From: Knoellia locipacati
GTDB taxonomy: Bacteria > Actinomycetota > Actinomycetes > Actinomycetales > Dermatophilaceae
Length of the DNA stretch: 35,372 nt
NCBI RefSeq assembly: GCF_007992835.1
Contig: NZ_BKBA01000010.1
Span: 1 to 35,372 of the forward strand
Reading direction: 5' to 3'
The stretch's first letter is position 1. Each line of letters starts with the position of its first letter. Under the pieces are notes generated by a model. It saw nothing but the letters and a program-made list of their open reading frames with translations, had not been told where the DNA came from and searched no databases. Shown here in pieces: positions 1,856 through 34,487 of this stretch. The translations under genes were made by a program, and so were the position numbers.

Positions 1856-2671
1856 TCAGGCAGCCGGATCCAGCGGGTGCCCGCGCTCGGCGAGCACGTC
1901 ACGCAGCACGTCGATGTGGTCGGTGACGATGCCGTCGACACCCAGGTCGAGCAGCCGGTGCATCTCGGGTGCGTCCTCGTCGCTCCACGGGTGGAACCAC
2001 ACGTGCACCTGCTTGCCCAGCCGGTGGGCCACCCGCACGAGTCCCGGTGTCACGAGGGTCAGCTCACGACCCCGGATCCGGTGCGCCACCGGCACCTGCA
2101 GCACAGGGGCGGTCGTGTGGAGCCACCGGGACAACATCCCCGGTGCATAGCGCAGCAGACCCGTCCCGACCTGCCCGGCAGCCGTCGCGAGACCGGGACC
2201 CAGCGCACGACGCGCTGCCCGCACCCGACGCTCGCTGAACGACCCGATGCACACGCGGTCGATGGCGTCGTGGCGCCGGATCGTGTCGACCGTCGGCGCC
2301 AGCGCGGTGTCGGCCTTGATGTCGATGTTGAGCCGCGTGGTCGGGAACTCCTCGAGCAGCTCGGTGAGCAGCGGCACCGCGTCGGTGCCGTTGATCCGCG
2401 CCTCGCGCACCGCGGCATACGGCAGCTCGATGATCGCGCCCTCGACGTCGGTGACCCGGTCGAGGTGCGTGTCGTGGAAGGCGACGAGCTCACCGTCGGA
2501 CGTCGCGTGCACGTCCGTCTCGAGGTAGTGGTAGCCCATCGCGACGGCTTCGCGGAACGCGCGCATCGTGTTCTCGAGACCGACATTCGGTGCGTATGCC
2601 GCCCCGCCCCGGTGTGCCATCGCGATCGGTCCGCTGTGGTCGAAGTACGCGAAGTCGCCCGCACGTGCCAT
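1856..2671 (-). CDS. Glycerophosphodiester phosphodiesterase family protein
   Basis: The 271-residue protein belongs to the GDPD TIM-barrel family, which hydrolyses glycerophosphodiesters to glycerol 3-phosphate and an alcohol. The metal-binding and catalytic residues are visible: HRG at 20-22, ENT at 33-35, ETD at 51-53 (acidic pair) and FHD at 65-67. A second helical half ends near the HVWFHPW and GVDGIVTDHID motifs that close the barrel. Length matches the cytoplasmic enzymes and there is no signal peptide. The ATG at 2671 lies only three bases after the stop of the upstream alpha-glucosidase gene, so the two are likely translated from one mRNA. The frame holds two copies of the CGGCATAC octamer (2413 and 2594). 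Confidence 0.9.
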   Translation of the reverse strand: MARAGDFAYFDHSGPIAMAHRGGAAYAPNVGLENTMRAFREAVAMGYHYLETDVHATSDGELVAFHDTHLDRVTDVEGAIIELPYAAVREARINGTDAVPLLTELLEEFPTTRLNIDIKADTALAPTVDTIRRHDAIDRVCIGSFSERRVRAARRALGPGLATAAGQVGTGLLRYAPGMLSRWLHTTAPVLQVPVAHRIRGRELTLVTPGLVRVAHRLGKQVHVWFHPWSDEDAPEMHRLLDLGVDGIVTDHIDVLRDVLAERGHPLDPAA

Positions 2672-2674
2672 GGC

Positions 2675-4459
2675 TCAGAGCCTTGCCCACACGGCGACGT
2701 CGGTCGGCACCTGCCCGTCAGCACCCAGCGGCCCCGAGCTCAGGACGACCTCGGCGCCCGAGGGCAGCGCCACCGGCTCCGCACCGAGGTTGACGAGCAC
2801 GAGCATCCGCCGCCCCGCGTCGGAACCGGAGCCGGACGCGTTGACGACCGCCACCACGTCACCCCCCGAGAGGTCGTGCCACGCCGCCGAGCCCAGCCCG
2901 AGCCGGTCCGCGCGACGCACCGACAGCATCGACCGGTACAGCTCGAGCGTCGAGCCCTCGACGCCCTCCTGCTGGTCCACGGCATACGCGCCGTAGGCCT
3001 CCGGCTGCGGCAGCCAGGTCGCGTCCGACGGCCCGAACCCCAGGCTGGGGGCGTCGCGCACCCACGGCATCGGGACGCGGCACCCGTCGCGGCCGATCTC
3101 CTTGCCCTCGGTGCGGTGGAAGGTCGGGTCCTGGCGGAACTCGTCGGGCATGTCGGTCGACTCGGGGAGCCCGAGCTCCTCGCCCTGGTAGACGTAGGAG
3201 CTGCCCGGCAGGCCGAGCATGAGCATCGTCGCCGCGCGGGCGCGCTTGAGCCCCAGCTCGGCGTTCGGCTGCGCCTGGTCGGCGCCGATGCCGTTGGGGC
3301 GGGGGAGCGACTGGTCGAGGCCGAGCCGGGAGGCGTGCCGGACGACGTCGTGGTTGGACAGCACCCAGGTCGTCGGCGCGCCGACGTGGTCGTTCTCGCG
3401 GAACGACGTCGTGATGACCTCGCGCAGCCGCTCGGCGTCCCAGTGGGTGTCGAGGAAGTCGAAGTTGAACGCCTGGTGCATCTCGTCGCTGCGGACGTAG
3501 CGCGCCAGCCGGCTCTCGGGCTTGACCCACGCCTCGGCGCAGAGGATCCGCTCGGGCGCGGGCTGGGCGTCGAGGACGGAGCGCCAGCGTCGGTAGATGT
3601 CGTGCACGCCCTCCTGGTCCCACATCGGCGGGCGCGGCCCGTCGCCGGTCTCGTGGATCCGCGCGGACTCCTCCTCGCCCACGGGGAGGGCGGCCTCGGC
3701 GCTCGAGTCGGCGGCGTCGAGCATCTGCATCGGGCCGTGCCAGTCCGGCAGGCCCGCCTCCTTGACGAGACCGTGCGCGACGTCGACCCGGAAGCCGTCG
3801 ACCCCACGCGCACACCAGAACTCGAGGATCGAGGCGAACTCGTCGCCGACCTCGGGGTTGGTCCAGTCGTAGTCGGGCTGGGTCGTGTCGAAGATGTGGA
3901 GGTACCACTCGCCCGGCGTCCCGTCGGCCTCCGTGACCCGGGTCCAGCCCTCACCGCCGAAGACGGACGGCCAGTTGTTCGGCGGCTCCTCGCCGTTGGC
4001 CCCCTTGCCCTCGCGGAAGACGTAGCGGCCACGCTCGGCACTGCCCGGCCCTGCCGCCAGCGCCGCCTTGAACCACTCGTGCTCGCTCGACGAGTGGTTG
4101 GGCACGAGGTCGACGACGACCTTGAGGCCGAGGTCGTGCGCGGTCGAGATGAGCGCGTCGGCGTCGGGCAGCGACCCGAAGACCGGGTCGATGTCGCGGT
4201 AGTCCGCCACGTCGTAGCCGGCGTCGTGCATCGGCGAGACGTAGAACGGCGACAGCCAGATGGCGTCGACGCCGAGGTCGCGCAGGTAGGGCAGCCGCGC
4301 GGTGATGCCGGGCAGGTCACCGATGCCGTCGCCGTCGGAGTCGGCCCACGACCGCGGGTAGATCTGGTAGATCACCGCGTCGCGCCACCACGGCGCATCG
4401 GCCGGGTCGGCGTCGTGGAGGGGAGTCAGGGCAGTGGCGTCAGGGGTGCTCTGGGTCAC
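2675..4459 (-). CDS. aglA: GH13 alpha-glucosidase / oligo-1,6-glucosidase
   Basis: This is a 594-residue glycoside hydrolase of family 13 that should release glucose from the non-reducing end of alpha-linked oligosaccharides in the cytoplasm. The barrel starts at about residue 24 (WWRDAVIYQIYPRSW). The four conserved regions are present: DLVPNH (117-122), GFRVDVAH with nucleophile Asp226, ILCAEAW with acid/base Glu309, and LSNHD with Asp371. A small beta domain closes the C-terminus. I chose GTG 4459 because similarity begins soon after it; the open frame reaches back to 4570, but that extension reads through an intergenic palindrome. No strong ribosome-binding site is visible. The position next to glbO matches aglA in M. 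tuberculosis, from memory. One CGGCATAC copy lies at 2980. Confidence 0.88.
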   Translation of the reverse strand: MTQSTPDATALTPLHDADPADAPWWRDAVIYQIYPRSWADSDGDGIGDLPGITARLPYLRDLGVDAIWLSPFYVSPMHDAGYDVADYRDIDPVFGSLPDADALISTAHDLGLKVVVDLVPNHSSSEHEWFKAALAAGPGSAERGRYVFREGKGANGEEPPNNWPSVFGGEGWTRVTEADGTPGEWYLHIFDTTQPDYDWTNPEVGDEFASILEFWCARGVDGFRVDVAHGLVKEAGLPDWHGPMQMLDAADSSAEAALPVGEEESARIHETGDGPRPPMWDQEGVHDIYRRWRSVLDAQPAPERILCAEAWVKPESRLARYVRSDEMHQAFNFDFLDTHWDAERLREVITTSFRENDHVGAPTTWVLSNHDVVRHASRLGLDQSLPRPNGIGADQAQPNAELGLKRARAATMLMLGLPGSSYVYQGEELGLPESTDMPDEFRQDPTFHRTEGKEIGRDGCRVPMPWVRDAPSLGFGPSDATWLPQPEAYGAYAVDQQEGVEGSTLELYRSMLSVRRADRLGLGSAAWHDLSGGDVVAVVNASGSGSDAGRRMLVLVNLGAEPVALPSGAEVVLSSGPLGADGQVPTDVAVWARL

Positions 4460-4473: not shown

Positions 4474-4481
4474 GTATGCCG
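4474..4481. repeat. Intergenic copy of the GTATGCCG/CGGCATAC octamer
   Basis: This unpaired copy lies 14 bases upstream of the alpha-glucosidase start, reading GTATGCCG on the plus strand. It belongs to the dispersed octamer family described in the findings. Confidence 0.7.
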
Positions 4482-6010: not shown

Positions 6011-8565
6011 CCCTGTGCGTCACGCTCCTGCGCGGCGAGGGCGCGGGTGACCGGGTCGCGGTTCTCGGAGACGAGGCGGCGCAGCGCGTCGGGGGCGTCC
6101 GGGTTGGCGTCGAGCCAGGCCTGGGTCGCGTCGCGCAGCTCCGCGCTGGCGAGGCCGCGCGGGTAGAAGCCGGCGACGATCGACTCGATGAGGGCCATCG
6201 AACCCTTGTCCTGCACCGTGCCGAGCACCTCGTGATAGCGCGCGACGAAGGGCTCGAGCGCCGCGACGTCGCCGAGGCGACCGAAGCCGAGGCCGTAGGC
6301 GTCGACGAGCGAGTTGGACAGCCCGTCCTCGGTGACGGCGGCCTTCCACGCCGCCTCCTTGGCCTGCGCCGTGGGGACAGAGGCGCGCGCCCGGGCGGCG
6401 CGCTCCTGACCGGTGGCGGTGGGGTCGCGGTCGAGCTCGGCCTCGATCTCGCCGTCCTGCAGGGCGTTCGCGCCCGCGAGACCGGTGAGCAGCGTCCAGC
6501 GCATGTCGGTGTCGAGGGCCAGCCCGTCGAGCGTCTCGGTCCCGTCGAGCAGACCCCGCAGGTATGCCGTGTCGTCACCGGTCGTCGTCATGCCGGCTGC
6601 CGCCGTGACGAGCTGGAGCTGGGCGTCGCTGCCGGGCTCGGCAGCCCGGGCGATCTCCCAGAGGCGGGCGAGCGTCGCGCGCCGCGTCTCGTCGCGGTTC
6701 TCGGGAGCGGTGTAGAGGTTGACCGCGGTCGCGAGCTGCGCGAACAGCGTGCGCAGCAGGGTCGAGTCGGTCTCGCCCGGCAGGACCTCGAGCACGAGCT
6801 CCGCGAACGTGCGCGAGCTCATCTCGGCGTCGCGCGTCATGTCCCACGCGGAGGCGAGGACGAGCGACTTGGGCAGCGAGCTCTCGAAGCCGCGGATGTG
6901 CTCGATGGCGGTCGACATCGAGCGCTCGTCGAGCCGGAGCTTGGCGTAGGTGAGGTCGTCGTCGTTGACGAGGACGAGGTCGGGCTGCGACCGGCCGATG
7001 AGCTCGGGGACCTCGGTCCGCTCGCCGGTGAGGTCGATCTCGAGGCGGCCGGTGCGCACGAGACGCGAGCCGGCAGCGCCACCCAGCTCGACGGCATACA
7101 GGCCGATCGCGAGGCGGTGGGGGCGGATCGTCTCGAAGCCCGTGGCGTAGGTCTGCTCGATGACGGCGCTGGAGATCCGGCCGCGGTCGTCGACCTCGAT
7201 GACGGGGCGCAGGGTGTTGACGCCGGCGGTCTCGAGCCACGCCTTGCTCCACGTGCGCAGGTCACGGCCCGACGTCGCCTCGAGCTCGTCGAGGAGGTCA
7301 TCGAGGGTGGTGTTGCTCCACTGGTGCTTGGCGAAGTAGGCGCGCAGCCCGTCACGGAACGGCTCGCGGCCGACGTAGGCGACGAGCTGCTTGAGGACGG
7401 AGGCGCCCTTGGCGTAGGTGATGCCGTCGAAGTTGACCTCGACGTCCTCGAGGTCGCGGATCGGCGCAACGATCGGGTGGGTCGAGGACAGCTGGTCCTG
7501 GCGGTAGGCCCAGTCCTTCTCGTGCGTGCCGAACGTCGTCCACGCCTCGGTCCACTCGGTGGCCTCGGCCTGGCACGTCGTCGACGCCCACTCGGCGAAG
7601 GACTCGTTGAGCCAGAGGTCGTTCCACCACTTCATCGTCACGAGGTTGCCGAACCACATGTGCGCGAGCTCGTGCAGCACCGTGAGGGCGCGGCGCTCGA
7701 CGATCGCGTCGGTGACCTTGGACCGGAAGACGTACATCTCGTTGAACGTCACGCAGCCGGCGTTCTCCATCGCACCCATGTTGTACTCGGGCGTGAAGAT
7801 CTGGTCGTACTTCTCGAACGGGTAGGGCTGGTCGAACTCGGCCTCGAAGAACTCGAACCCACGCTTGGTGAGGTCGAAGAGGTTGTCGGCGTCGAGGAAC
7901 TGCGTCAGCGACTTGCGGCAGAAGATGCCGAGCGGGATCTCGCCCTTGCGGCTCGTCAGGCTGTCGCGCACGACGTCGTAGGGGCCGGCGACGAGCGCGG
8001 TGATGTAGCTCGAGATCGGCTCGGTCGCAGAGAACACCCACGTCGAGATGCCGTCGCGGTCGGTCGCGGTCGGCTCGGGGGTGGGGGAGTTGGAGAGCAC
8101 CTGCCAGTGGCTCGGCGCCGTCACCGTGAAGCTGAACCGCGCCTTGAGGTCGGGCTGCTCGAACACGGGGTACATGCGGCGGCTGTCGGGCACCTCGAAC
8201 TGGCTGTAGAGGTAGACCTCGCCGTCGACGGGGTCGACGAACCGGTGCAGGCCCTCGCCGGTGTTCATGTAGCGGCCGGTGGCCTCGATCCGCAGCTCGT
8301 TGTGCGCGGCCAGTCCCGTGATGGCGATACGCGAACCGTCGTATGCCGTGTCCACCACGTCACCGTTGAGCGTCACCTTCTCGACGGACTCGCCGAGGAA
8401 GTCGACGAAGGTCGAGGCGCCCTCGGTCGCGGTGAAGGTGATGGTGCTCGTCGTCGCGAACGTCGTCTCGGACGTCGTGAGGTCGAGCTCGACGGCGTAC
8501 GCGTCGGTCGAGACGAGCGCTGCGCGCTCCTGCGCCTCGACGCGGGTCAGGTTCTTGCCGGGCAC
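6007..8565 (-). CDS. pepN: Aminopeptidase N (M1 family zinc metallopeptidase)
   Basis: This 852-residue cytoplasmic enzyme removes N-terminal residues from peptides. The M1 signatures are GAMEN (264-268), which binds the free N-terminus, and the zinc site HELAH (298-302) with the third ligand Glu321 in LNESFAEW. A C-terminal helical ERAP1-like domain fills the second half. I chose GTG 8565 because a perfect AGGAGG (8573-8578 on the complement) lies seven bases upstream and the family begins with a PGxNLTR motif there. The frame stays open to 8928, but that stretch crosses the divergent gene. First gene of the operon with mscS and glbO. It carries three CGGCATAC copies (6562, 7092, 8341). Confidence 0.95.
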   Translation of the reverse strand: MPGKNLTRVEAQERAALVSTDAYAVELDLTTSETTFATTSTITFTATEGASTFVDFLGESVEKVTLNGDVVDTAYDGSRIAITGLAAHNELRIEATGRYMNTGEGLHRFVDPVDGEVYLYSQFEVPDSRRMYPVFEQPDLKARFSFTVTAPSHWQVLSNSPTPEPTATDRDGISTWVFSATEPISSYITALVAGPYDVVRDSLTSRKGEIPLGIFCRKSLTQFLDADNLFDLTKRGFEFFEAEFDQPYPFEKYDQIFTPEYNMGAMENAGCVTFNEMYVFRSKVTDAIVERRALTVLHELAHMWFGNLVTMKWWNDLWLNESFAEWASTTCQAEATEWTEAWTTFGTHEKDWAYRQDQLSSTHPIVAPIRDLEDVEVNFDGITYAKGASVLKQLVAYVGREPFRDGLRAYFAKHQWSNTTLDDLLDELEATSGRDLRTWSKAWLETAGVNTLRPVIEVDDRGRISSAVIEQTYATGFETIRPHRLAIGLYAVELGGAAGSRLVRTGRLEIDLTGERTEVPELIGRSQPDLVLVNDDDLTYAKLRLDERSMSTAIEHIRGFESSLPKSLVLASAWDMTRDAEMSSRTFAELVLEVLPGETDSTLLRTLFAQLATAVNLYTAPENRDETRRATLARLWEIARAAEPGSDAQLQLVTAAAGMTTTGDDTAYLRGLLDGTETLDGLALDTDMRWTLLTGLAGANALQDGEIEAELDRDPTATGQERAARARASVPTAQAKEAAWKAAVTEDGLSNSLVDAYGLGFGRLGDVAALEPFVARYHEVLGTVQDKGSMALIESIVAGFYPRGLASAELRDATQAWLDANPDAPDALRRLVSENRDPVTRALAAQERDAQG

Positions 8566-9350: not shown

Positions 9351-9818
9351 ATGCGCGTACACATCGGCGGCGACCACGCGGCATACGACCTCCAGCAGGA
9401 CCTCATCGCGTTCCTCGAGGCCGAGGGCCACGAGGTGACCAACCACGGACCGTTCGAGCTCGACCCGGTCGACGACTACCCGGTGTTCGTGCTGCGTGCG
9501 GCCGAGGGCGTGGCGGCGGACGACGACTCGCTCGGCATCGTCCTCGGGGGCTCGGGCAACGGTGAGCAGATGGCCGCCAACAAGGTCGCCGGTGTGCGCG
9601 CCGCCCTCTGCTACAACGACGAGCTCGCCCGGCTGGCCCGCGAGCACAACGACGCCCGGGTCATCTCGATCGGGGGCCGGATGAACTCCGTCGCCGAGGC
9701 GCGCTCGATGGTGCGGACCTTCCTCGACACGCCCTTCTCCGGCGAGGAGCGCCACCAGCGCCGGATCGACATGGTCTCCGCCTACGAGAGCACCAAATCG
9801 CTGCCTGACCTGCAGTGA
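9351..9818 (+). CDS. rpiB: Ribose-5-phosphate isomerase B
   Basis: The 155-residue enzyme interconverts ribose 5-phosphate and ribulose 5-phosphate in the pentose phosphate pathway. It starts MRVHIGGDHAAY with the Asp8-His9 pair. It carries the loop GGSGNGEQMAANK, in which Glu72 occupies the catalytic base position typical of actinobacterial RpiB (other bacteria have Cys). ARVISIGGRM is the substrate phosphate-binding region. The ATG at 9351 has a GGGAG about 12 bases upstream. A CGGCATAC copy at 9379 encodes the Ala-Tyr at residues 10-12. Confidence 0.95.
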   Translation: MRVHIGGDHAAYDLQQDLIAFLEAEGHEVTNHGPFELDPVDDYPVFVLRAAEGVAADDDSLGIVLGGSGNGEQMAANKVAGVRAALCYNDELARLAREHNDARVISIGGRMNSVAEARSMVRTFLDTPFSGEERHQRRIDMVSAYESTKSLPDLQ

Positions 9819-11018: not shown

Positions 11019-11088
11019 CGCGCGGGCCAAGAGAGGGCGCGCCGGTCCTGCCGCCTGGCCGCGGCAGGGACGGTCCGCCCGACGGCGC

Positions 11089-11787: not shown

Positions 11788-11790
11788 CCA

Positions 11791-12629: not shown

Positions 12630-12666
12630 GGTATGCCGTCCGCGCGAGGTGCGCGGACGGCATACC
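12630..12666. terminator. 16-bp hairpin built from a head-to-head octamer pair
   Basis: Arms 12630-12645 and 12651-12666 are perfect reverse complements around a 5-base loop. The outer end of each arm is the octamer (GTATGCCG at 12631, CGGCATAC at 12658). It lies between converging genes, the interrupted membrane frame and the metalloprotease, and can serve both. Confidence 0.85.
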
Positions 12667-15277: not shown

Positions 15278-15321
15278 ACGTATGCCGTGTGCCCACCGAG
15301 AGGTGGGCACACGGCATACGT
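15278..15321. terminator. 20-bp hairpin after tig built from a head-to-head octamer pair
   Basis: Arms 15278-15297 and 15302-15321 are perfect complements around a GAGA tetraloop. GTATGCCG (15280) and CGGCATAC (15312) form the base of the stem. It begins 20 bases after the tig stop codon and is the strongest hairpin in the window. Confidence 0.88.
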
Positions 15322-18381: not shown

Positions 18382-18389
18382 CGGCATAC
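18382..18389. repeat. Intergenic copy of the CGGCATAC octamer
   Basis: It starts two bases after the MFS stop codon. With the following bases it forms a small CGGC-ATAC-GCCG hairpin, but it is not paired with a second octamer. Confidence 0.65.
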
Positions 18390-19844: not shown

Positions 19845-19878
19845 GTATGCCGTCCGCTCACCCGAGCGGACGGCATAC
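19845..19878. terminator. 15-bp hairpin after clpP2 built from a head-to-head octamer pair
   Basis: Arms 19845-19859 and 19864-19878 are perfect complements around ACCC. GTATGCCG opens the left arm and CGGCATAC closes the right. It starts 25 bases past the clpP2 stop. Confidence 0.85.
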
Positions 19879-22723: not shown

Positions 22724-23257
22724 TCAGCGCTCGCGGCGCTGCACCGGAGCCTTCGCGAGCGAGAGCCAGAGCGCCAGTCCGAGGAGCGCGAGTGCCGCCA
22801 GCGCGGCATACGTCGCCACCGGGTCCCCGCCGGGACGGGACGCCGTCTGCGACACGAGCAGCGCCCACACCGGGACCGAGAGCCCGAGGACGGCCAGCCC
22901 ACGGCGCCCCCAGCGCTCGACGCTCGCACGGGGGACGGGCGCACTCTGCGGCAGCGTCGCCGCCAGTGCCGCCGCGAGGTGGATCGTCAGCAGCCCGCAC
23001 GCCATGACGAGGGTGAGCACCCAGTCGCGCATCCCGTCGGGGACCGTGTTGCTCATGAGCCAGTGGAGACCGTGCAGGGTGATGAGCAGCGCCGTGATCC
23101 GCGACCCCGGGTCGAGGACGACGAAGGGCGTGAGGGCGGTGAGCAGGAGTGCGGCGACCACCGAGCCGAGCGGGCCCACCGTCACCGTGAGGATGGCGAG
23201 CCCGACCGACACGACCGCGATGACGGCACGCAGGACGTTCTGCGAGCGCGACCTCAT
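22724..23257 (-). CDS. Small integral membrane protein of the MoxR-DUF58 operon
   Basis: The 177-residue protein has about four to five hydrophobic helices (near 9-50, 75-95 and 115-170) and a basic N-terminus (MRSRSQNVLR). I recognise no family. Its ATG at 23257 overlaps the stop of the DUF58 gene by four bases (ATGA), so it is the last gene of a coupled operon and probably works with the DUF58/MoxR pair at the membrane. The frame stays open upstream inside the DUF58 gene but without a credible start. A CGGCATAC copy at 22802 encodes Tyr-Ala. Confidence 0.8.
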   Translation of the reverse strand: MRSRSQNVLRAVIAVVSVGLAILTVTVGPLGSVVAALLLTALTPFVVLDPGSRITALLITLHGLHWLMSNTVPDGMRDWVLTLVMACGLLTIHLAAALAATLPQSAPVPRASVERWGRRGLAVLGLSVPVWALLVSQTASRPGGDPVATYAALAALALLGLALWLSLAKAPVQRRER

Positions 23258-24693: not shown

Positions 24694-25685
24694 GGCCCCT
24701 CGTACCCGGTGCGCCTCTCGCCCTCGGTCGGCGAGGGCGTCGGCACCGACGACAGGATCGCGCTGATGACGCTCTCGGCGGTGACGTCGTTGATCCACAG
24801 CTCCGGCCGCACCGTGACGCGGTGGTCCAGCGCGGCGTGCGCGACGGCCTTGACGTCCTCGGGGGTGACGTAGTCGCGGCCGCGGACCACGGCATACGCG
24901 CGGCTGGCGAGCATGAGCGCGAGCGAGCCGCGCGGAGAGGCCCCCAGGACGAGACTCGCGTGCGAGCGGGTCGCGGCGGCGAGCCGCACGCAGTAGCGGC
25001 CCACGCTCTCGTCGACGGTGACCGTCTCGACGGCCCGCTGCATCGCGACGAACCCGGGGGCGTCGGTGATCGCCGGGACGGTCTGCGCCTCCTGTCGGCG
25101 GTCGATGCGGCGGCGCAGGACCTCCCACTCGTCGGCCGCGCCGGGGTAGCCGAACGAGACCCGCAGCAGGAACCGGTCGAGCTGCGCCTCGGGGAGGGGA
25201 TAGGTGCCTTCGTACTCGACCGGGTTGGCCGTCGCGAGGACGTGGAAGGGGCGATCGAGGGTGAACGTCTCGCCCTCGACGGTGATCTGCCCCTCCTGCA
25301 TCGCCTCGAGCAGCGCGGCCTGCGTCTTGGGAGGGGTGCGGTTGATCTCGTCGGCGAGCAGCAGCTGCGTGAACAGCGGCCCGCGGCGGAAGACGAACTC
25401 GTGCGTGCGCTGGTCGTAGATGAACGCGCCAGTGAGGTCGCTGGGCAGCAGGTCGGGCGTGAACTGCGCCCGGGCGAAGTCGATGCCGAGCGCCTGCGCG
25501 AACGACCGCGCCGCGAGCGTCTTGCCGAGGCCGGGGAAGTCCTCCATGAGGACGTGACCGCCGGAGAGCAGACCCGCGAGGACGAGCTCGAGGCTCTCGC
25601 GCTTGCCGACGACGGCCCGCTCGACGGCCGACAGGATCTGGGCGGAGAGGTCGGCGACCTCACGCAGGGTGGGGGTGTCGCTCAC
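24690..25685 (-). CDS. MoxR-family AAA+ ATPase
   Basis: The 331-residue cytoplasmic ATPase has Walker A FPGLGKT (50-56), Walker B LLLADEIN (108-115) and sensor 1 at ATANPVEYEGTYPLPEAQLD (about 150-169, the typical MoxR stretch). A C-terminal lid with SPRGSLALMLASRAYA follows. MoxR proteins act as chaperone-like ATPases together with von Willebrand A proteins, here the downstream DUF58 protein. GTG 25685 adjoins the stop of the previous gene. A CGGCATAC copy at 24890 encodes Tyr-Ala in the lid. Confidence 0.93.
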   Translation of the reverse strand: MSDTPTLREVADLSAQILSAVERAVVGKRESLELVLAGLLSGGHVLMEDFPGLGKTLAARSFAQALGIDFARAQFTPDLLPSDLTGAFIYDQRTHEFVFRRGPLFTQLLLADEINRTPPKTQAALLEAMQEGQITVEGETFTLDRPFHVLATANPVEYEGTYPLPEAQLDRFLLRVSFGYPGAADEWEVLRRRIDRRQEAQTVPAITDAPGFVAMQRAVETVTVDESVGRYCVRLAAATRSHASLVLGASPRGSLALMLASRAYAVVRGRDYVTPEDVKAVAHAALDHRVTVRPELWINDVTAESVISAILSSVPTPSPTEGERRTGYEGP

Positions 25686-26183
25686 TCAGTGCTCCTCGAG
25701 GGTGGTGATGAACGATGCGAGCTCGTCGGTGGTCACCGGGCGAGGTGTCGCGGAGGTCAGGTATGCCGTGAGCGCAGGTCCCAGCGCGGCTCGCGTGGCG
25801 TCGTCGGTCGGGGTGGGTGCCAGCCGCTGCGCGGTGAGGCTGGCCTCGGCGGCGGAGCGCACGAGCTCGCGGACGTCGGCCCGCGCCGCCTCGTCGCCGG
25901 TGAGCGCTGCGTCGATGGTGCGCGAGAGCGAGGTGACCCGTCGGTCGCTGCCACGGACGCGTTCGGGTGTGCCGCCGCTCGTCGTCCACTCGACCTCCCG
26001 GTGCGAGCGCAGCAGCCAGATCGCCAGCGCGGCGACGACGAGCAGGAGGCCCGTGGAGGCGAGGAGGAGCAGGGGTCGCTCGAGGACGGGGACCAGGCTC
26101 ACCGCGAGGCCGAGCACGGCGGCGACCGCGACGGCGGTCGCGATCTCGTTGCCGCGCACGAGGTCGGCAAGGCGCTGACTCAT
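25686..26183 (-). CDS. Small membrane protein of the MoxR-DUF58 operon
   Basis: The 165-residue protein has two membrane segments (about 14-33 and 37-58), then a basic stretch and a C-terminal helical cytoplasmic part of about 100 residues. I recognise no named family. The ATG at 26183 overlaps the stop of the DUF4129 gene by four bases, and its stop touches the MoxR start. Comparable small proteins occur between DUF4129 and MoxR genes in other actinobacteria, from memory. One CGGCATAC copy at 25761 encodes Ala-Tyr. Confidence 0.8.
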   Translation of the reverse strand: MSQRLADLVRGNEIATAVAVAAVLGLAVSLVPVLERPLLLLASTGLLLVVAALAIWLLRSHREVEWTTSGGTPERVRGSDRRVTSLSRTIDAALTGDEAARADVRELVRSAAEASLTAQRLAPTPTDDATRAALGPALTAYLTSATPRPVTTDELASFITTLEEH

Positions 26184-26881
26184 CGCCGGGTCCCGCCCAT
26201 GGCCTGCAGGGGGCGGGTGAGCTCCTCGCGCACCGTGCGCAGGGCCTCGCGGGCGGCACCCCGGTGCGCCTCGCCGATCGGGTGGACGGAGAAGCGGGCC
26301 TCACGGTAGAGCGCGGCGAGACGCTGGATGGACGGCCGGTCGACGTCGTAGCCCTCGAGCACCGCCGCGACGAGCTCGGTGGGTGTGCGCGCGAGGTCGT
26401 CGTCGATGCCGACCTCGAGGGCCGTCCGCTCGAGGGCGAGCCACGCGTTGATCACCGCCTCGCTCGAGGTGCCGCGGTCGAGCTCGGCCTCGCTCGCCCG
26501 GACGCCGGCGAGGAGCACGTCGGGCAGCACCGGCGCCTCGACGTCGTCCTTCGGGGTCACGGTGTCGCGGCGGAGGCGGCGCAGGACCGCCCGTGCCACG
26601 AGCAGCGCGACGACGAGGACGACGACGACGAGGAGGACCCGCAGGGTCCACGCCACGATCGACGCGATGAGCTCGTTGTCCTCGACACTCCTGACCCGGT
26701 CGGCGCCGGGGGTGCGCGCGTCACCGGTGTCGGGCTCGACGAGCTCCCCGAACTCGTTGTCGGTCGGTGGGCTCAGCCCCGGCGTCGTGAAGGCGGCGAT
26801 CGGGCCCGCCACCGACACCCAGGCAGCGAGCAGCAGCGCGGCCGCGGTGCCTGCCGTCCATGCCCATTCGCGTCGCCCCAT
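26180..26881 (-). CDS. DUF4129 domain-containing membrane protein
   Basis: The 233-residue protein has an N-terminal membrane segment (about 8-30), an extracytoplasmic loop, a second membrane segment (72-97), and a C-terminal cytoplasmic DUF4129 domain. That domain is recognised by AVINAWLALERTALEVGI, RTPTELVAAVL and the closing LAALYREARFSVHPIGEAH. DUF4129 domains usually accompany MoxR, DUF58 and transglutaminase-like proteins. ATG 26881 was chosen because the first membrane helix follows it. There is no ribosome-binding site at normal distance; TAGGCT ends eight bases upstream, so the operon mRNA may begin at or near the ATG. First gene of a five-gene operon. Confidence 0.85.
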   Translation of the reverse strand: MGRREWAWTAGTAAALLLAAWVSVAGPIAAFTTPGLSPPTDNEFGELVEPDTGDARTPGADRVRSVEDNELIASIVAWTLRVLLVVVVLVVALLVARAVLRRLRRDTVTPKDDVEAPVLPDVLLAGVRASEAELDRGTSSEAVINAWLALERTALEVGIDDDLARTPTELVAAVLEGYDVDRPSIQRLAALYREARFSVHPIGEAHRGAAREALRTVREELTRPLQAMGGTRR

Positions 26882-27813: not shown

Positions 27814-30465
27814 TCACTGCTGGGGCTTGGGCTTCTCCACCGGGATGAGCTCGACGTCGCTCGCGCCCCAGGCGTCGGCCGGGACGAGGTCGAGCGAGCC
27901 GGTGATCTTGCCCGCGGCGCGCAGGTCGTCCTCGCCCGCGCGGACGTGTGCGAGCAGGTGCTCGGGACCGCCGAGGGTGATCCGTGCGACCTCGGCCCGC
28001 ATCGACAGCTTGGCCTCGGACTTGCTCTTGCGGACCGTCGCGAGGGCCGAGCCGACGGCACCGAGCATGCCGGGGTCGACGCCGTCGTCGGCGGCGGCGA
28101 CCTCGTCGGACGTCGGCCACGACGTCACGTGGACGGAGCCGTCGTGCCACCACGACCACGCCTCCTCGGTGACGTAGGGCAGGAACGGCGCGAGCAGCCG
28201 GAGCACGACGTCGAGCGCGATCCGCAGCGTCGCGCGGGCGGACGCCGCCTCGGCGTCACCCTGCGAGCCGTAGGCGCGGTCCTTGACGAGCTCGAGGTAG
28301 TCGTCGCAGAACGTCCAGAAGAACGTCTCGGTGACCTCGAGCGAGCGGGTGTAGTCCCACGACTCGAAACCGGCGGTGGCCTTCTCGACGACCTCGCGCA
28401 GACCGGCGAGCAGCGCCCGGTCGAGCGGGTTGGTCACCTGCGCGGCCAGGTCGCCGTCCACCTCACCGAACGAGAGCGCGAACTTCGAGGCGTTGAGGAC
28501 CTTGATCGCCAGGCGGCGGCCGACCTTCATCTGGCCCACGTCGTAGGCGGCGTCGGTGCCGAGGCGACCCGAGGCCGCCCAGTAGCGCACGGCGTCGGCG
28601 GAGTGCTCGCGCAGGACGTCCTCGGGCGTGACGACGTTGCCCTTGGACTTGCTCATCTTCTTGCGGTCGGGGTCGAGGATCCAGCCGCTGATCGCCGCGT
28701 TGGTCCACGGCACCGTGCCGTGCTCGAAGTAGGCGCGCACGACCGTCGCGAAGAGCCAGGTGCGGATGATGTCGTGGCCCTGCGGACGCACGTCCATCGG
28801 GAAGACCTTGTCGAAGACGGGGTCGGTCGTCACCGAGCCGGACTCGTCGACGCTGCGCCAGCCCGCGGCGATCTGCGGCGAGAGCGACGAGGTCGCCCAG
28901 GTGTCGAGCACGTCGGGGTCGCCGGTGAAACCGCCGGCCTGGCCGCGCTGCGACTCGTCGTAGCCCTGGGGCGCCTGCGACACGGGGTCGATCGGCAGCG
29001 ACTCCTCGGTCGGCACGATGGGGGAGTCCCACACCGGCTCGCCGTCGGCGTCGAGGGGGTACCAGACCGGGATCGGCACACCGAAGAAGCGCTGGCGCGA
29101 CACGAGCCAGTCGCCGTTGAGGCCGGCCACCCAGTTGGCGTAGCGGGCCTGCATGAACGACGGGTGGAAGTCGATGGACTGGCCCTGCCCGATGAGCTTG
29201 CCGTTGAGGTCGGCGTCGCGGCCGCCGTTGCGGATGTACCACTGGCGCGAGGTGACGATCTCGAGCGGCTTCTCGCCACGCTCGTAGAAGTTGGCTTTGC
29301 GCTGGGTCGCCTTGGGCTCGCCGTCGAGGTCCCCGGTCTCGCGCAGCGCGGCGACGACGAGCTCGCGTGCCGAGTGCACGGTCTTGCCGGCGAGCTCGCC
29401 GAACAGCTCGGCGCCCGGTCCGCCGGCGATCCACTCCGGCGTCTCGGCCTGGATCCGTCCCTGGCGGGTGATGACCGACCGGGTCGGCAGCTGGAGCTCG
29501 CGCCACCAGATGACGTCGGTGAGGTCACCGAAGGTGCAGCACATGGCGATACCGGCGCCCTTGTCCATCTCGGCCATCGGGTGCGCCACCACTGGCACCT
29601 CGACCCCGAACAACGGTGACGTGACCGTGGAGCCGAACAGGCCGGCATACCGCTCGTCGTCCGGGTGGGCGATGAGAGCGACGACCGACGGGATGAGCTC
29701 GGGACGCGTCGTCTCGATGTGGATGGGTCCGTCGGCGCCGTGGAACGCGACGCGGTGGTAGGCGCCGGGGTAGTCGCGCGCCTCGAGCTCGGCCTGGGCG
29801 ACGGCCGTCTGGAAGGTGACGTCCCACAGCCCGGGGGCCTCGGCCTGGTAGGCCTCGCCGCGGGCGAGGTTGCGCAGGAACGCCTGCTGCGCCGTCGCGC
29901 GGGAGTGGTCGTCGATGGTGCGGTAGGAGATGTCCCAGTCGAAGGACTGGCCGAGCCGGCGGAAGAGCGACTCGAACGCCTTCTCGTCCTCGACGGTCAG
30001 CTCGTCGCAGAGCTCGATGAAGTTCTGGCGCGAGATCGGCATCGCGTCGCCCGCGCGCAGGCTCTTGGCGTCGCCCCGGTGCGGCGGCTCGAACGTCGGG
30101 TCGTGGGGCAGCGAGGCGTCGCCGCGCACGCCGTAGTAGTTCTGGACGCGCTTCTCGGTGGGCAGGCCGTTGTCGTCCCAGCCGATCGGGTAGAAGACGT
30201 TGAAGCCGGCCATCCGCTTGTAGCGCGCCATGCAGTCGGTGTGCGTGTACGAGAACACGTGACCCATGTGCAGGCTGCCCGACGCGGTCGGCGGGGGAGT
30301 GTCGATCGAGAAGACCGCCGAGCGCGGCCCGGCGAGCGCCGCGTCACGGTCGAACGTGTAGGTCTGCTGCTCCGCCCATACCTGTCCCCACTTGTCCTCG
30401 AGGCCGTCCAGCGAGGGGCGCTCCGGAATCGTGGCAGCGCGAGACGAGGTGAGGTCAGCAGACAT
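27814..30465 (-). CDS. valS: Valine--tRNA ligase
   Basis: The 883-residue class I synthetase charges tRNA-Val. It has the HIGH-type motif SGSLHMGH (62-69), WDDNGLPTEKRVQNYYG near 97-113 and the KMSKS motif at 603-607. The editing domain lies in between (around ETTRPELIPSVVALIAHPDD) and an anticodon-binding domain follows. The GLPTE/NYYGVRGD form is the one found in many actinobacteria and archaea rather than the E. coli form. The tail ends at EKPKPQQ, without the long coiled coil of E. coli ValS. ATG 30465 is preceded by GGGAG. One CGGCATAC copy at 29643 encodes Tyr-Ala. Confidence 0.96.
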   Translation of the reverse strand: MSADLTSSRAATIPERPSLDGLEDKWGQVWAEQQTYTFDRDAALAGPRSAVFSIDTPPPTASGSLHMGHVFSYTHTDCMARYKRMAGFNVFYPIGWDDNGLPTEKRVQNYYGVRGDASLPHDPTFEPPHRGDAKSLRAGDAMPISRQNFIELCDELTVEDEKAFESLFRRLGQSFDWDISYRTIDDHSRATAQQAFLRNLARGEAYQAEAPGLWDVTFQTAVAQAELEARDYPGAYHRVAFHGADGPIHIETTRPELIPSVVALIAHPDDERYAGLFGSTVTSPLFGVEVPVVAHPMAEMDKGAGIAMCCTFGDLTDVIWWRELQLPTRSVITRQGRIQAETPEWIAGGPGAELFGELAGKTVHSARELVVAALRETGDLDGEPKATQRKANFYERGEKPLEIVTSRQWYIRNGGRDADLNGKLIGQGQSIDFHPSFMQARYANWVAGLNGDWLVSRQRFFGVPIPVWYPLDADGEPVWDSPIVPTEESLPIDPVSQAPQGYDESQRGQAGGFTGDPDVLDTWATSSLSPQIAAGWRSVDESGSVTTDPVFDKVFPMDVRPQGHDIIRTWLFATVVRAYFEHGTVPWTNAAISGWILDPDRKKMSKSKGNVVTPEDVLREHSADAVRYWAASGRLGTDAAYDVGQMKVGRRLAIKVLNASKFALSFGEVDGDLAAQVTNPLDRALLAGLREVVEKATAGFESWDYTRSLEVTETFFWTFCDDYLELVKDRAYGSQGDAEAASARATLRIALDVVLRLLAPFLPYVTEEAWSWWHDGSVHVTSWPTSDEVAAADDGVDPGMLGAVGSALATVRKSKSEAKLSMRAEVARITLGGPEHLLAHVRAGEDDLRAAGKITGSLDLVPADAWGASDVELIPVEKPKPQQ

Positions 30466-30520: not shown

Positions 30521-30528
30521 GTATGCCG
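30521..30528. repeat. Intergenic copy of the GTATGCCG octamer upstream of valS
   Basis: This unpaired copy lies in the 134-base gap between the mycP stop and the valS start. It is flanked by CCGCG and GGCC, which allow a weak GGCCG/CGGCC hairpin. Confidence 0.65.
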
Positions 30529-30599: not shown

Positions 30600-31811
30600 T
30601 CAGGACCGTTGCGGTTGGCGCAGCATCCGGGCCATGCCGAGCCCGAGGACGGCCGCGCCGACACCGAGGAGGAGCCAGAGGACGGCGTTGCGGTCGGGTG
30701 CTCGCGGGTCCGGCGCCGGGGTGAGGTCGATGGTCGACACCGCGGGTGGGGGCGTCGGCCGGGCCACGCCACCGGGTGCCACCGGGCCGGCGACGGTGTC
30801 GTCGAGGACGGCGGTCATCGCCTCGTAGGGCTGGACGACCCCCCAGCCGGCGGCGTCGTTGCGCACGGTCCGGGACCCGCGGGACGCGGTCGCCTCGAGC
30901 CGGTGGGCGATGACGGCGGCCGAGGCCTGGGGGAACTTCTGTCGCAGGAGCGCCGCGGCCCCGGCGACGTAGGCGGTGGCATAGCTGCTCGACTGCTGCT
31001 CCTGCGAGAAGACGCAGTCGCCCCACGAGCGGAACGTGGAGATGACGTTGTCGCCCGGGGCCGACAGGTCGACCTGGGGCCCGCGGATGGAGTTGGCGGT
31101 GACGACGTCGGCGCCGTTGGTGGCGGCGACCCCGATCACTCCCGGGTAGGCGGCGGGGTAGCGCAGCCCGTCCTTGGCGTCGGCCGCCTGCTCGCGGTTG
31201 CCCCCGGACGCGACGACGATGACACCGGCCTTGACGGCGGCAGCGACGGCGCCGCGGACGTCGGCGCGGTTCGCGGTCGTCGAGAGGGAGAGGTTGATGA
31301 CGTCGGCGCCGGCGGCCACCGCGTAGGCGATGCCCGGCGCCAGGTTGGCCGAGCGCTGCTGCTCCTCGTCGCCGCCGTCCTGCCCGCCCGTGATCTTGAC
31401 GGGGAGGATCGTCGCCGCGGGGGCGATGCCGACCACGCCGGACTTCTCGCCGATGTCGCGCGCGGCGATGACGCCCGCGATCGCCGTGCCGTGACCGGAC
31501 TCGTCGGTCGTGGCGGCGCCACCGACGAAGCTCTTGCCGGGCAGGACCGAACCCCGGGGGAAGTGGATGTTGTTGGCGGCGACCCCGGAGTCGACGACGG
31601 CCACGACCACGCCGGTGCCGGTGGACAGCGACCACGCGGTCGGGGCGCCGAGCCGGGCGACGGCCGGCGGCGCCTGCTGGACGAACCGGGTGACGCCCTC
31701 GGTGCACTCACGGGCCTCGGCCCGCGCCGACGGCGCAGCGACGGGTGCGACGAGGCTGCTCGCGACGAGGGCCAGCGCCCCCGTGGCGGTCACGACGCGG
31801 TGGTGCCTCAC
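30600..31811 (-). CDS. mycP: Mycosin, subtilisin-like serine protease of type VII secretion
   Basis: The 403-residue precursor has a signal peptide (hydrophobic 8-28), a subtilase domain with Asp74 (VVAVVDSG), His107 (SGHGTA) and Ser276, and oxyanion Asn205 (ASGGN). A Pro-rich linker (about 345-375) and a C-terminal membrane helix (about 378-398) follow. Mycosins are membrane-anchored in the periplasm and stabilise ESX membrane complexes. The serine motif is SSSYATAYVAG, while most subtilases have GTS before the alanine-rich helix; the Ser is kept but Gly-Thr is replaced by Ser-Ser. GTG 31811 overlaps the eccB stop by four bases. Confidence 0.93.
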   Translation of the reverse strand: MRHHRVVTATGALALVASSLVAPVAAPSARAEARECTEGVTRFVQQAPPAVARLGAPTAWSLSTGTGVVVAVVDSGVAANNIHFPRGSVLPGKSFVGGAATTDESGHGTAIAGVIAARDIGEKSGVVGIAPAATILPVKITGGQDGGDEEQQRSANLAPGIAYAVAAGADVINLSLSTTANRADVRGAVAAAVKAGVIVVASGGNREQAADAKDGLRYPAAYPGVIGVAATNGADVVTANSIRGPQVDLSAPGDNVISTFRSWGDCVFSQEQQSSSYATAYVAGAAALLRQKFPQASAAVIAHRLEATASRGSRTVRNDAAGWGVVQPYEAMTAVLDDTVAGPVAPGGVARPTPPPAVSTIDLTPAPDPRAPDRNAVLWLLLGVGAAVLGLGMARMLRQPQRS

Positions 31812-33148
31812 GACGCGGCGGCCACGGTGGTCTGGGCGGCCTCGACACTGAGCTCGGGTCCGGTGCGGAAGAGCTCGGACCAGGCCTGGGGCACGGGCGC
31901 GACGTCCTCGGGTCGGTAGCCGAGCCGCTGCAGCAGGTCGGGGGTCGAGCCGTCGATGGCGTAGGACGTGCCGGTCTGGTCGATGGCGAGCAGCGGTCCG
32001 GCGCTCAGCGACCCGGCACCCACGGCGCGGACCAGGGCCCCGGTGCCGAGGTCGACGGTCGTCTTGGTCCCGCTCGCCTGGGGGCGCACCGACGTCGACG
32101 TGGAGAGGTCGACCTTGGGCTGGTTGCCGCGCGACGTCGTGAGCGCGGCGCAGGGGGCCTCTGCGACGGGTGAGGGCAGGGACGTCGGCCACGCCGGGGG
32201 AGCCACGCGCTGCGGGCCAACCTTGAGCTGGGTGACCTGGGCCGGGGTGACCGGGAGGTCCTCGGTCGTGCTGCCCGAGCCGATCCGGTAGAGGGCGTGC
32301 GCCAGGTCGGGCAGCGGCTCGAGCTCACCGGCGGAGTTGACGAGGTAGCGACGTGCGGCCTGTCCGCTGTTGGCGACGGCGAGCACGGAGCCGACGGTGG
32401 CGCCGGGCGGGAGGCCGGGTGCGGGCTTGCCGAAGGTGGGCAGGCGCAGCGGCTCGAGGGCCGGGCCGAGCGCGAAGAGGTTGGTCCACACGGCCGGGGC
32501 GGCCTGCGGGGGCCTGCCGTCGAGACCGAGGGCGAGCGTCACGGCGGAGAGGTTGGCCGCCGCGACGGGGTAGCGCATCCCGCCGGCGATGACGAAGGTC
32601 TCCTTGCCGGTGGTGACCACGCTCGCCTCGTCGACCGCGGGAGCGCTCTTGGCCGAGGCGCCGACGGCGGTCGTCACCCCACCCTCGGTGCCGAGGCACG
32701 ACACCCAGCCGCTGTTGGTCAGGGCGTCGGGGGGCGTGAGCGAGTCGGGCGCGCCGAGGATGCCGATGGTGGAGCCACGTTTCTGCTTGGCCAGCTTGTC
32801 GTCGGCGACGGTGATGACCTCGAAGCTGTTGGCCGGGATGAGCAGCCGGGCGCTCGTCGTGTTGAGGACGGGGTGCAGCGTCTCCTTGATGGAGATGTAG
32901 CGCGCGCCGCTGGTCTTGGCGATGACGAGCTTGTTGTCGCCCCAGTTCTGCGGCAGCGACCCCTTGAGCCACCCGAAGGCCATGCTGCCGATGACGAGGA
33001 CGACGGTGAGCGCGAGACCGCCGATGACGGCCTTCATGGGTCGGTGCGGCTCGACCTCGCGGCCGCCGGGGCTGCCGCTGACGAAGGCCGTGGTGAGTCG
33101 GCGCTTGCTGAACGACTGGGCCTCGACGAGGTCCTTCTTGGTGGCCAT
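31808..33148 (-). CDS. eccB: Type VII secretion protein EccB
   Basis: The 446-residue protein starts MATKKDLVEAQSFSKRRL, the conserved EccB N-terminus. One membrane helix (39-59) follows and then a large periplasmic domain. That domain contains the repeated hexapeptide-like segments and GWVSCLGTEGGVT expected of EccB, including a Cys pair (in SCLG and in EAPCAAL). EccB is a structural part of the ESX core complex. ATG 33148 lies seven bases after the eccD stop. The frame is open further upstream, but that would run through eccD. Confidence 0.94.
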   Translation of the reverse strand: MATKKDLVEAQSFSKRRLTTAFVSGSPGGREVEPHRPMKAVIGGLALTVVLVIGSMAFGWLKGSLPQNWGDNKLVIAKTSGARYISIKETLHPVLNTTSARLLIPANSFEVITVADDKLAKQKRGSTIGILGAPDSLTPPDALTNSGWVSCLGTEGGVTTAVGASAKSAPAVDEASVVTTGKETFVIAGGMRYPVAAANLSAVTLALGLDGRPPQAAPAVWTNLFALGPALEPLRLPTFGKPAPGLPPGATVGSVLAVANSGQAARRYLVNSAGELEPLPDLAHALYRIGSGSTTEDLPVTPAQVTQLKVGPQRVAPPAWPTSLPSPVAEAPCAALTTSRGNQPKVDLSTSTSVRPQASGTKTTVDLGTGALVRAVGAGSLSAGPLLAIDQTGTSYAIDGSTPDLLQRLGYRPEDVAPVPQAWSELFRTGPELSVEAAQTTVAAAS

Positions 33149-33155
33149 CGGGCGC

Positions 33156-34487
33156 TCAGAGGAGACCGACGGCGAAGGCCGCCAGCGGGAAGAGGGCGAC
33201 GAGGGCGACGCCCTCGATGGCGTCGGCGACCCGGCCGAGCTGGACCCGCGTGCGGGGCAGGACGAGCGCCAGGGCCACGACGACCGCGGCGGCGCCCGCG
33301 AGCCCCAGGGCCAGGAGTGGGCGCCAGTCGGGGTGGGTCTGGGCGGCCGAGACGGACGCGACGGCGAGCCCGGTGATGCCACCGATCATCGCGATGAGCA
33401 CCGTGACCCGGGTGCGGCTGTGCCGGGTGCGAAGCAGCGTGGCGACGAAGCCGACGAAGGTGAGCATCGCGCCCGCGGCGCCGGCCGCGACGAGCTGCGG
33501 GGTGCAGAGGATCATCACCGCGGCGCTCGCGACACCCAGCGCGACGATGAGCTCGTGGCCGGCAGCCACCTGCCGGCGCACCTCGTCGCGCTCGACCTCG
33601 GGGACGTCCTCGAAGATCTCGAGGTCGGTCTTGGGCGGGTGCGTCGTGAGCCGACTGGTGGAGATGCCCACCCACGGCAGGACGTTGCCGACGAGGGCCG
33701 CGACGATGAACGTCGCGGCGGCGACGGTGGTGAGGCTCCAGCCGACGTAGTGGCTCAGCGCGCCGAGGGCGATCATCGCGATGCCGACGGCGGCAGTCGC
33801 AGCGACGAGGAGCTGGTGGCGCGTGACGGCCACGGCACCGAGGACACCGACGACGGCGACTCCGGCGCCGGCATACAGCAGGCCCTCGCCCCAGAGCGCG
33901 GCGTCCGGGACGGAGGCGAAACCCGAGACACCGGCATACACGACCGCGGTGAGCGCGAGCGCGACCGCAGCGGCGGGCTGCTTGCGCACGTGCGCGAGGA
34001 CGGCGGCGGCGCCCACGAGGAGCAGGGCGCAGACGCCCGAGAGGGCGGCGATGAGGATGCCGCTGTCACGTGCGGTGAACAACGCGTATGCCGCGGCGAG
34101 GAAGAGGACGACCGACGCACCGACCGCGGTGCCCGCGCTGTTGGCCGCGGTCCACGGGGTGAACTGGGTCTCGACGAGGTCCGCGACCGCCTCGACCACG
34201 TCGTCGTAGACCTTGTCGCCATCGGCTCGGTTGGGCTCGAGGGCCAGGACCGAGCCGTCCTCGATGCCCTGTGCCGCAAGGCTTCTGTCGCTCTCGACGG
34301 GTGAGCCGTCGGCGCGCAGCAGTCGGTAGCCGAGGCTGGCGGAGTGGGGTTCGAGCACCCCCAGCTCGCGGGCGAGGTCCGGGATGATCTCGGCGACCGG
34401 GATCGACCCGGGGATGCCGAGGTCGGCGCGTCGGGTCCCCGACGACACGGACAGCCGAACGAGCGACGCAGCCGTGCTCTGGCTCAC
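33156..34487 (-). CDS. eccD: Type VII secretion integral membrane protein EccD
   Basis: The 443-residue protein has an N-terminal ubiquitin-like domain (about 1-95, RLSVSSGTRRADLGIP to SVLALEPN), a short cytoplasmic link (DGDKVYDDVVEAVAD) and eleven or so hydrophobic helices. EccD forms the membrane vestibule of the ESX complex. I chose GTG 34487 because GGGGAGG lies eight bases upstream; an upstream ATG at 34511 would place that ribosome-binding site inside the gene. It is the first of the minus-strand genes eccD-eccB-mycP. It holds three copies of CGGCATAC (33869, 33932, 34086), the densest cluster in a gene. Confidence 0.93.
   Translation of the reverse strand: MSQSTAASLVRLSVSSGTRRADLGIPGSIPVAEIIPDLARELGVLEPHSASLGYRLLRADGSPVESDRSLAAQGIEDGSVLALEPNRADGDKVYDDVVEAVADLVETQFTPWTAANSAGTAVGASVVLFLAAAYALFTARDSGILIAALSGVCALLLVGAAAVLAHVRKQPAAAVALALTAVVYAGVSGFASVPDAALWGEGLLYAGAGVAVVGVLGAVAVTRHQLLVAATAAVGIAMIALGALSHYVGWSLTTVAAATFIVAALVGNVLPWVGISTSRLTTHPPKTDLEIFEDVPEVERDEVRRQVAAGHELIVALGVASAAVMILCTPQLVAAGAAGAMLTFVGFVATLLRTRHSRTRVTVLIAMIGGITGLAVASVSAAQTHPDWRPLLALGLAGAAAVVVALALVLPRTRVQLGRVADAIEGVALVALFPLAAFAVGLL

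Follow-up and report, generated by a model that had tools for sequence, protein, structure and literature searches.

A dispersed octamer in Knoellia locipacati and its relatives as a candidate DNA uptake sequence with lineage-specific dialects

Introduction

In the literature covered here, uptake sequences are described from two Gram-negative families, as the DNA uptake sequence (DUS) of Neisseriaceae and the uptake signal sequence (USS) of Pasteurellaceae. These are the closest described systems to the element reported here, the octamer CGGCATAC, which is dispersed over a 35,372-nucleotide stretch of Knoellia locipacati DNA (contig NZ_BKBA01000010.1, positions 1 to 35,372; hereafter the window) and over the rest of the genome. 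It has long been asked why uptake sequences evolve, whether for kin recognition or as a by-product of biased uptake, and only two origins have been available for comparison. The Pasteurellaceae USS has a longer flanking signal. Over-represented octamers are also known as HIP1 of cyanobacteria, Chi and KOPS, of which HIP1 is palindromic and Chi and KOPS are strand-skewed.

The available text of Frye and others (PMC3630211) describes eight DUS dialects in Neisseriaceae, congruent with the core-genome tree, and inverted DUS pairs, suggestive of terminators, in all genomes with DUS dialects. For the Pasteurellaceae USS, the available parts of two papers report that uptake preference was measured (PMC7811141) and that the receptor was long unknown (PMC12616744). 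Transformation of Micrococcus luteus depends on tad genes and on comEC (PMC4322843); in the portion of that paper available to us, the terms 'uptake sequence' and 'sequence-specific' occur 0 times. We found no report of an actinobacterial uptake sequence in the open-access literature, subscription journals and preprints not being covered and mentions of the octamer being hard to screen among adapter and primer matches.

As in Neisseriaceae (judged from the same text, PMC3630211), CGGCATAC is a short non-palindromic word with thousands of copies, phylogeny-following dialects, inverted pairs in terminator-like hairpins and many genic copies. It differs in its letters, its Gram-positive actinobacterial host and the presumed use of a Tad/Flp rather than a type IVa pilus; no ComP-like receptor was found among five proteins compared in three genera. 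A CTG core is common to all eight dialects of Neisseriaceae (PMC3630211, available text), whereas the Janibacter word CCCCCTTCG has no obvious core in common with CGGCATAC. With the Pasteurellaceae USS, CGGCATAC shares the character of a short, dense, family-bound word with subtypes; again the letters differ, and the USS host is Gram-negative. The actinobacterial comEA, comEC and tad clusters are like those of Flp/Tad-dependent transformation in M. luteus, as far as the available text of PMC4322843 describes it. We consider it quite probable that CGGCATAC (in Knoellia the fuller ACGGCATAC) is a DNA uptake sequence with dialects, used through a Tad/Flp-ComEA-ComEC route.

Over-representation of the octamer

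The window contains 23 exact copies of CGGCATAC, 13 on the + and 10 on the - strand, with both orientations alternating along it (Table 1). A sequence-only reading of the window had arrived at the same totals, and its positions stand except for one, listed as 22802, whose correct start is 22804. Its remark that nearly every CATAC belongs to the octamer applies to 23 of the 29 in the window and not to the other six. Dinucleotide shuffling of the window gave an expectation of 0.30 copies, none of 100 shuffles reaching 23, and an order-3 Markov model gave 1.2.

Across the genome (19 contigs, 3,587,375 bp) we counted 2,535 copies, 1,269 on the + and 1,266 on the - strand, or about one per 1.4 kb over 3.59 Mb, against 99 (50 + / 49 -) for the reversed word as control. 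This count excludes an enrichment confined to the window, which the earlier reading had considered fatal to its proposal, and the absence of strand bias that it had noted holds for the genome totals (the contigs are unordered and replichores not separable). In the own-genome sample, gaps between copies had a mean of 1,324 and a coefficient of variation of 0.89; these gap values, like the frame and intergenic counts of words in Knoellia, include 10 kb of contig C14 twice. In density (roughly one copy per 1-2 kb in DUS and USS), even spread and lack of skew in totals, the word resembles those systems.

In 430,060 bases, comprising the window and further stretches of the same genome, order-3 Markov expectations were 13.8 for CGGCATAC (301 observed) and 2.2 for ACGGCATAC (162 observed). 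The octamer is thus preceded by A in 162 of 301 copies, in agreement with the fuller form already proposed from the window, and ACGGCATAC is the favoured form in Knoellia. Order-5 and order-6 models predict 205 and 283 copies. The order-6 comparison had been suggested as a check and, taken literally, counts against the word; these expectations lie near the observed number because almost all the 6- and 7-mers contained in CGGCATAC come from the word itself. An order-6 model is blind to so dominant a word, and we therefore relied on the reversed-word control and on one-mismatch counts. Only 4 of the 24 one-mismatch words exceed their order-3 expectation more than 1.6-fold: CGGCCTAC (44 vs 22.8), CGGCATCC (76 vs 46.1), CGGCATAG (12 vs 4.9) and CGGTATAC (3 vs 0.6).

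Most one-mismatch words are thus near or below background, which, together with a short fixed word and lineage-specific variants, would also fit DNA modification or biased repair, with the word as a methyltransferase target or as the product of near-match conversion of the HIP1-like or Vsr-like kind. The word is not palindromic, however (its reverse complement is GTATGCCG), and neither the inverted pairs in hairpin stems nor the wholly different Janibacter word follows easily from a repair bias; we regard this explanation as quite unlikely. From HIP1, CGGCATAC is set apart by being no palindrome, and its equal totals on both strands would probably distinguish it from Chi and KOPS.

Placement, codon use and hairpins

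Placement was analysed in an overlap-free sample of 895,264 bases (25%) of the K. locipacati genome, with gene calls from a simple purpose-written codon-position scorer in place of a standard gene finder, so that some genes will be wrong. The 623 copies in this sample (311 + / 312 -) are wholly coding in 438 cases, intergenic in 171 and at gene boundaries in 14, with a density of 1.56/kb between genes vs 0.575/kb elsewhere. Coding copies mainly encode Ala-Tyr (169) or Tyr-Ala (198), and all six frame and strand settings occur. The octamer accounts for 34 of 47 ATA codons (72%) and 198 of 398 TAT codons (50%) in the sample; it overrides codon preference.

These data bear on an origin of the word by chance, or through the codon usage of a GC-rich genome. 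We found nothing of weight in favour of that explanation, apart from the codon-driven behaviour of the one-mismatch word CGGCATCC in Knoellia, and against it stand the six settings, the higher density between genes, the use of the rare ATA and TAT codons and the presence of relatives of similar GC content with no copy in 20-kb loci. The excess over the control, the family-wide copy counts and the placement data refute it, and its probability is next to nil.

Neighbouring copies lie within 60 bp of each other in 37 cases. The order GTATGCCG...CGGCATAC is found in 24 of these pairs (21 intergenic), the opposite inverted order in 11 (5 intergenic) and the same direction in two. Predicted folding energies of the three inverted pairs in the window are -33 to -44 kcal/mol (z -5.4 to -8.3). 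The combination of an intergenic excess with inverted pairs in predicted terminator-like hairpins is that known from DUS and USS. Strong hairpins from inverted pairs would be expected too if the word were an element of transcription termination or RNA processing, recurring by coincidence; such an element would hardly be wholly coding in 438 of 623 copies, sense and antisense, with only 37 pairs within 60 bp, and we judge it very improbable.

One hairpin of the window follows the gene at 13903-15258, which we named trigger factor (Tig) by eye and whose protein has relatives in Knoellia flava (95%) and K. sinensis (92%). The position 3' of tig was read in 52 of 56 loci. A hairpin with complete GTATGCCG/CGGCATAC arms is present in nine, from Knoellia and kin; at the same position, four of the eight Janibacter loci among the 52 carry complete CGAAGGGGG/CCCCCTTCG arms.

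Table 1. Copies of CGGCATAC in the window, with inverted pairs given as single features
Feature	Positions	Strand	Context	Folding	Exact in aligned Knoellia-clade loci
CGGCATAC copy	2413..2420	+	within GDPD-family gene, antisense		
CGGCATAC copy	2594..2601	-	intergenic		
CGGCATAC copy	2980..2987	+	coding, antisense		
CGGCATAC copy	4474..4481	-	intergenic		
CGGCATAC copy	6562..6569	-	M1 aminopeptidase gene, sense		
CGGCATAC copy	7092..7099	+	M1 aminopeptidase gene, antisense		
CGGCATAC copy	8341..8348	-	M1 aminopeptidase gene, sense		
CGGCATAC copy	9379..9386	+	coding, sense		5/5
inverted pair, hairpin	12631..12665	12631 -, 12658 +	between called convergent genes	-41.6 kcal/mol, z -5.35	both arms 7/7
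inverted pair, 20-bp hairpin	15280..15319	15280 -, 15312 +	just past gene 13903-15258	-44 kcal/mol, z -8.3	both arms 7/7
CGGCATAC copy	18382..18389	+	immediately past a gene end		
inverted pair, hairpin	19845..19878	19845 -, 19871 +	after + strand ClpP-like gene (by eye)	-33.1 kcal/mol, z -6.21	arms 7/7 and 5/6
CGGCATAC copy	22804..22811	+	coding, antisense		2/5 (least conserved)
CGGCATAC copy	24890..24897	+	MoxR-type AAA_3 gene, antisense		
CGGCATAC copy	25761..25768	-	coding, sense		
CGGCATAC copy	29643..29650	+	long gene 27814-30465, antisense		
CGGCATAC copy	30521..30528	-	intergenic		
CGGCATAC copy	33869..33876	+	eccD gene, antisense		
CGGCATAC copy	33932..33939	+	eccD gene, antisense		
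CGGCATAC copy	34086..34093	-	eccD gene, sense		

Distribution among relatives

The family sample comprised 186 genomes in 53 genera and is probably broader than the NCBI family of Knoellia, the Intrasporangiaceae. With the threshold for 'in bulk' set by eye at 300 copies or more and no less than 2.4 times the control, CGGCATAC occurs in bulk in 110 of the 186 genomes and 31 of the 53 genera; 99 genomes remain at a stricter cut (at least 400 copies and 5 times the control). All nine genomes of the genus Knoellia in the search carry 1,971-3,277 copies. Outside the family, none of 362 genomes from 19 other families of the order has the word in bulk, the maximum being 180 copies.

Among named loci, mostly of about 21 kb, CGGCATAC is present in Knoellia, Pedococcus, Terrabacter, Terracoccus, Humibacillus xanthopallidus and others, and also in three of four Intrasporangium loci, Arsenicicoccus, Flexivirga, Leekyejoonella and Metallococcus. 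There were 0 copies in Janibacter except strain HTCC2649, in seven Phycicoccus-clade loci, in Dermacoccus, Luteipulveratus, Allobranchiibius and I. flavum and in some others. Janibacter sp. HTCC2649 groups in the Knoellia clade on the tree and is an exception in name only. The preferred base before the octamer is G in Pedococcus and loci grouped with it (48 of 65) and A in Knoellia, and the third base is relaxed in Flexivirga, Metallococcus, Arsenicicoccus and others.

Two genomes, G008 (genus g4) and G113 (g41), have 37 and 50 copies where their congeners have hundreds to thousands, and are possible natural losses.

Dialects

Candidate words were taken from de novo counts in relatives lacking CGGCATAC and then tested on whole genomes; genera are given by their numbers in the sample. 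CCCCCTTCG reaches 797-1,939 copies in 19 of 184 genomes (16/16 of g27 and 3/3 of g35, both inferred to be Janibacter), and none of the remaining 165 exceeds 80. It is present in eight of nine named Janibacter tree loci (HTCC2649 aside), J. massiliensis being without it. CGGCATCC has 2,099-4,480 copies in seven of 184 genomes (g15, g9, g51) and no more than 1,336 in any of the remaining 177. CGKCGTAC has 1,387-6,893 copies in about 11 of 184 genomes (g34, g3, g6, g7, one g32 species and two of g5); the lowest of these, G004, is borderline and within the range of other genomes (up to 1,611). CCGCATAC has 511-1,204 copies in four of 30 tested genomes (g13) and at most 433 in the other 26. In genus g32, two genomes have CGGCATAC and one CGKCGTAC. 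No tested word was detected in 39 of the 186 genomes; this number is an upper limit, the second to fourth words having been tested in 184 genomes and CCGCATAC in 30 only.

Frame spread and intergenic share were used to grade these words. In Knoellia, where it is not a genome word, CGGCATCC is codon-driven, with 118 of 155 occurrences in one frame and 8% intergenic; in g15 and g51 it is spread over frames and 32-34% intergenic. The intergenic share is 29% for CCCCCTTCG and 25% for CGKCGTAC in g34. On these grounds CCCCCTTCG and CGGCATCC are firm as genuine genome words and CGKCGTAC and CCGCATCG are graded lower: CGKCGTAC is likely genuine in g34, with less certainty in g3, and CCGCATCG (genus g31) counts as a lead only.

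The dialects follow phylogeny, as in DUS and USS families. A Tig tree of 66 rows was built from 65 of 80 Tig loci and the window, 15 loci being left out, some for shortness. The labels tested were CGGCATAC, the relaxed form CGNCATAC and CCCCCTTCG, and 'none' includes genomes with other words, such as L084 (28 CGKCGTAC in 21 kb). The four word labels require 13 changes on this tree vs 30.6 on average after shuffling.

A chromosome-organising or nucleoid-associated protein, with the word as its binding site selected at about one per 1.4 kb, would likewise give a genome-wide spread, no skew in strand totals and sites conserved among Knoellia. Its word would not be expected to differ between and within genera, as it does in g32; an essential organiser should not vanish as often as in the 39 genomes without any tested word, and binding to duplex DNA does not predict a preference for inverted pairs in hairpins. 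We hold such an organiser to be unlikely.

Three side observations concern these words. In Janibacter genomes (g27, g35; G056, G092; L055, L057-L059, L063, L064, L070, L078), CCCCCTTCG also occurs as hairpin inverted pairs. G036 and G037 (g15) carry about 1,200 CGGCATAC together with 2,100-2,200 CGGCATCC and may be mid-switch genomes, or reflect a relaxed receptor. A search for own words of other families covered 16 stretches (of 20) that were 10 kb or longer and gave nothing clear save CGGCATCCG in family f19, where six of 40 genomes have 1,110-2,375 copies and the remaining 34 have 7-909. The f19 word (G461, G574, G548 and others; L248-L250) may be a second uptake-like word family or may reflect codon usage, which also favours CGGCATCCG.

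Conservation and low-GC islands

Conservation of the sites, a check that the sequence-only reading had proposed, is high among close relatives. Window copies aligned to seven Knoellia-clade genomes are exact in 67 of 71 cases, while in the same alignments the exact share is 29-45% for other 8-mers and 6-27% for those flanking the copies. Against seven other word-bearing loci, 15 of 22 copies are exact; against seven Phycicoccus-clade loci and against eight Janibacter loci, 0 of 20 each.

In low-GC 2-kb bins we found one site in eight bins vs 617 in 438 other bins. This suggests that, as with DUS and USS, the word is rare in foreign DNA, 'foreign' being judged from GC content; near-absence from islands of atypical DNA would also be expected of the chromosome organiser discussed above. 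One word-free low-GC stretch (contig C14, about 20530-26500; L130, about 10530-16500) interrupts a third tadA-like gene. A second (contig C4; L245, 12000-20000) has 58-60% GC and a single copy over its 8 kb.

DNA-uptake genes

The genes that the sequence-only reading had proposed to look for, comEA, comEC and those of a Tad pilus, are present in the K. locipacati genome, which, like DUS and USS hosts, has genes for DNA-uptake machinery. comEA, encoding SLBB and helix-hairpin-helix domains, adjoins comEC, and there are three above-cut-off matches to the secretion ATPase family T2SSE (tad-type). The match on contig C8 has as neighbours a TIGR03816 TadE-like gene and genes resembling, by eye, those for CpaE, TadB/C, Flp and TadE.

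Within the family, ComEC was found in 179 and ComEA in 180 of 184 genomes, and the TIGR03816 TadE-like protein, a marker of the Tad locus, in 181, of which 169 are over the curated cut-off. With these genes near-universal, we rejected the idea that having or lacking ComEC, ComEA or the Tad marker is the switch for the word. The import route would thus be common to word-bearing and word-free members, and specificity would vary. In a comparison of TadA, the match was clearly not the orthologue at five loci (L168, L169, L171, L172, L174).

Proposed mechanism and its weighing

Judged from gene content, Tad/Flp pili would carry free DNA to the cell and ComEA and ComEC would import it, much as in M. 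luteus, and a surface DNA-binding protein may prefer DNA with the species' own word. Tagged DNA of kin would then be imported and recombined more often, by which the word would spread and be kept over the chromosome, as its distribution is observed to be. Such spread would leave copies in codon frames that proteins tolerate, densest between genes and often in terminator-like hairpins. Where the preference of the receptor drifts, a genome would gradually be rewritten to a new dialect; Janibacter and other genera with words of their own may be examples, and the change may have run in that direction. Where sequence-specific uptake is lost, copies would decay. The Phycicoccus clade, in which copies are absent, may be such a case, decay being suggested because the clade is placed among word-bearing relatives.

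The sequence-only reading had left three options, an uptake-like, a methylation or a chromosome-organising motif. The first is strongly backed, because of the dialects, the inverted pairs in hairpins, the near-absence from islands, the lack of strand bias and the competence genes of M. luteus type; the other two account less well for dialect turnover. That the word works like a DUS is, in our judgement, better supported than that it is one, as membership in the functional sense would require an uptake preference and a receptor. We further think it fairly likely that this is a Gram-positive uptake-sequence system acting through Tad/Flp and ComEA/ComEC, with dialects that include the wholly unrelated CCCCCTTCG of Janibacter, and that it arose independently of those of Neisseriaceae and Pasteurellaceae.

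Several results weigh against an uptake function. After tig, 39 of the 52 loci have neither complete arm pair and show other stems, partial arms or weak arms, some with the octamer elsewhere. On the Tig tree the relaxed CGNCATAC label clusters weakly (5 changes vs 6.8 shuffled). Hardly any intergenic copies were found for CGKCGTAC in g3 (1 of 48, 2%) or for CCGCATCG in g31 (1 of 47, 2%). The depletion in low-GC DNA rests on two islands of 6-8 kb, which make up seven of the eight bins. Competence genes are no rarer in the 39 of 186 genomes in which no word was detected, and gene presence does not predict the word. Finally, no receptor stood out, Flp, TadE, the TadE-like protein, ComEA and ComEC diverging together in three genera that are word-mixed or wordless.

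If the uptake reading is true, actinobacteria would add a third, apparently independent origin of uptake sequences, and words differing within a genus would offer many natural comparisons. A sequence-specific DNA receptor of a new class would then be expected on Tad/Flp pili or in ComEA, and adding the right word to DNA might make laboratory transformation of these soil bacteria practical.

Other observations

The window also contains, at 31808-35324, the type VII secretion genes eccB and eccD, followed by two short open reading frames that are WXG100-like by eye.

The octamer is contained in Illumina adapter strings printed in papers. An origin of CGGCATAC from sequencing adapters was rejected, since the sample has no occurrence of an 18-base adapter stretch. 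Because a common sequencing adapter includes ACGGCATAC, careless trimming could clip real reads of these genomes.

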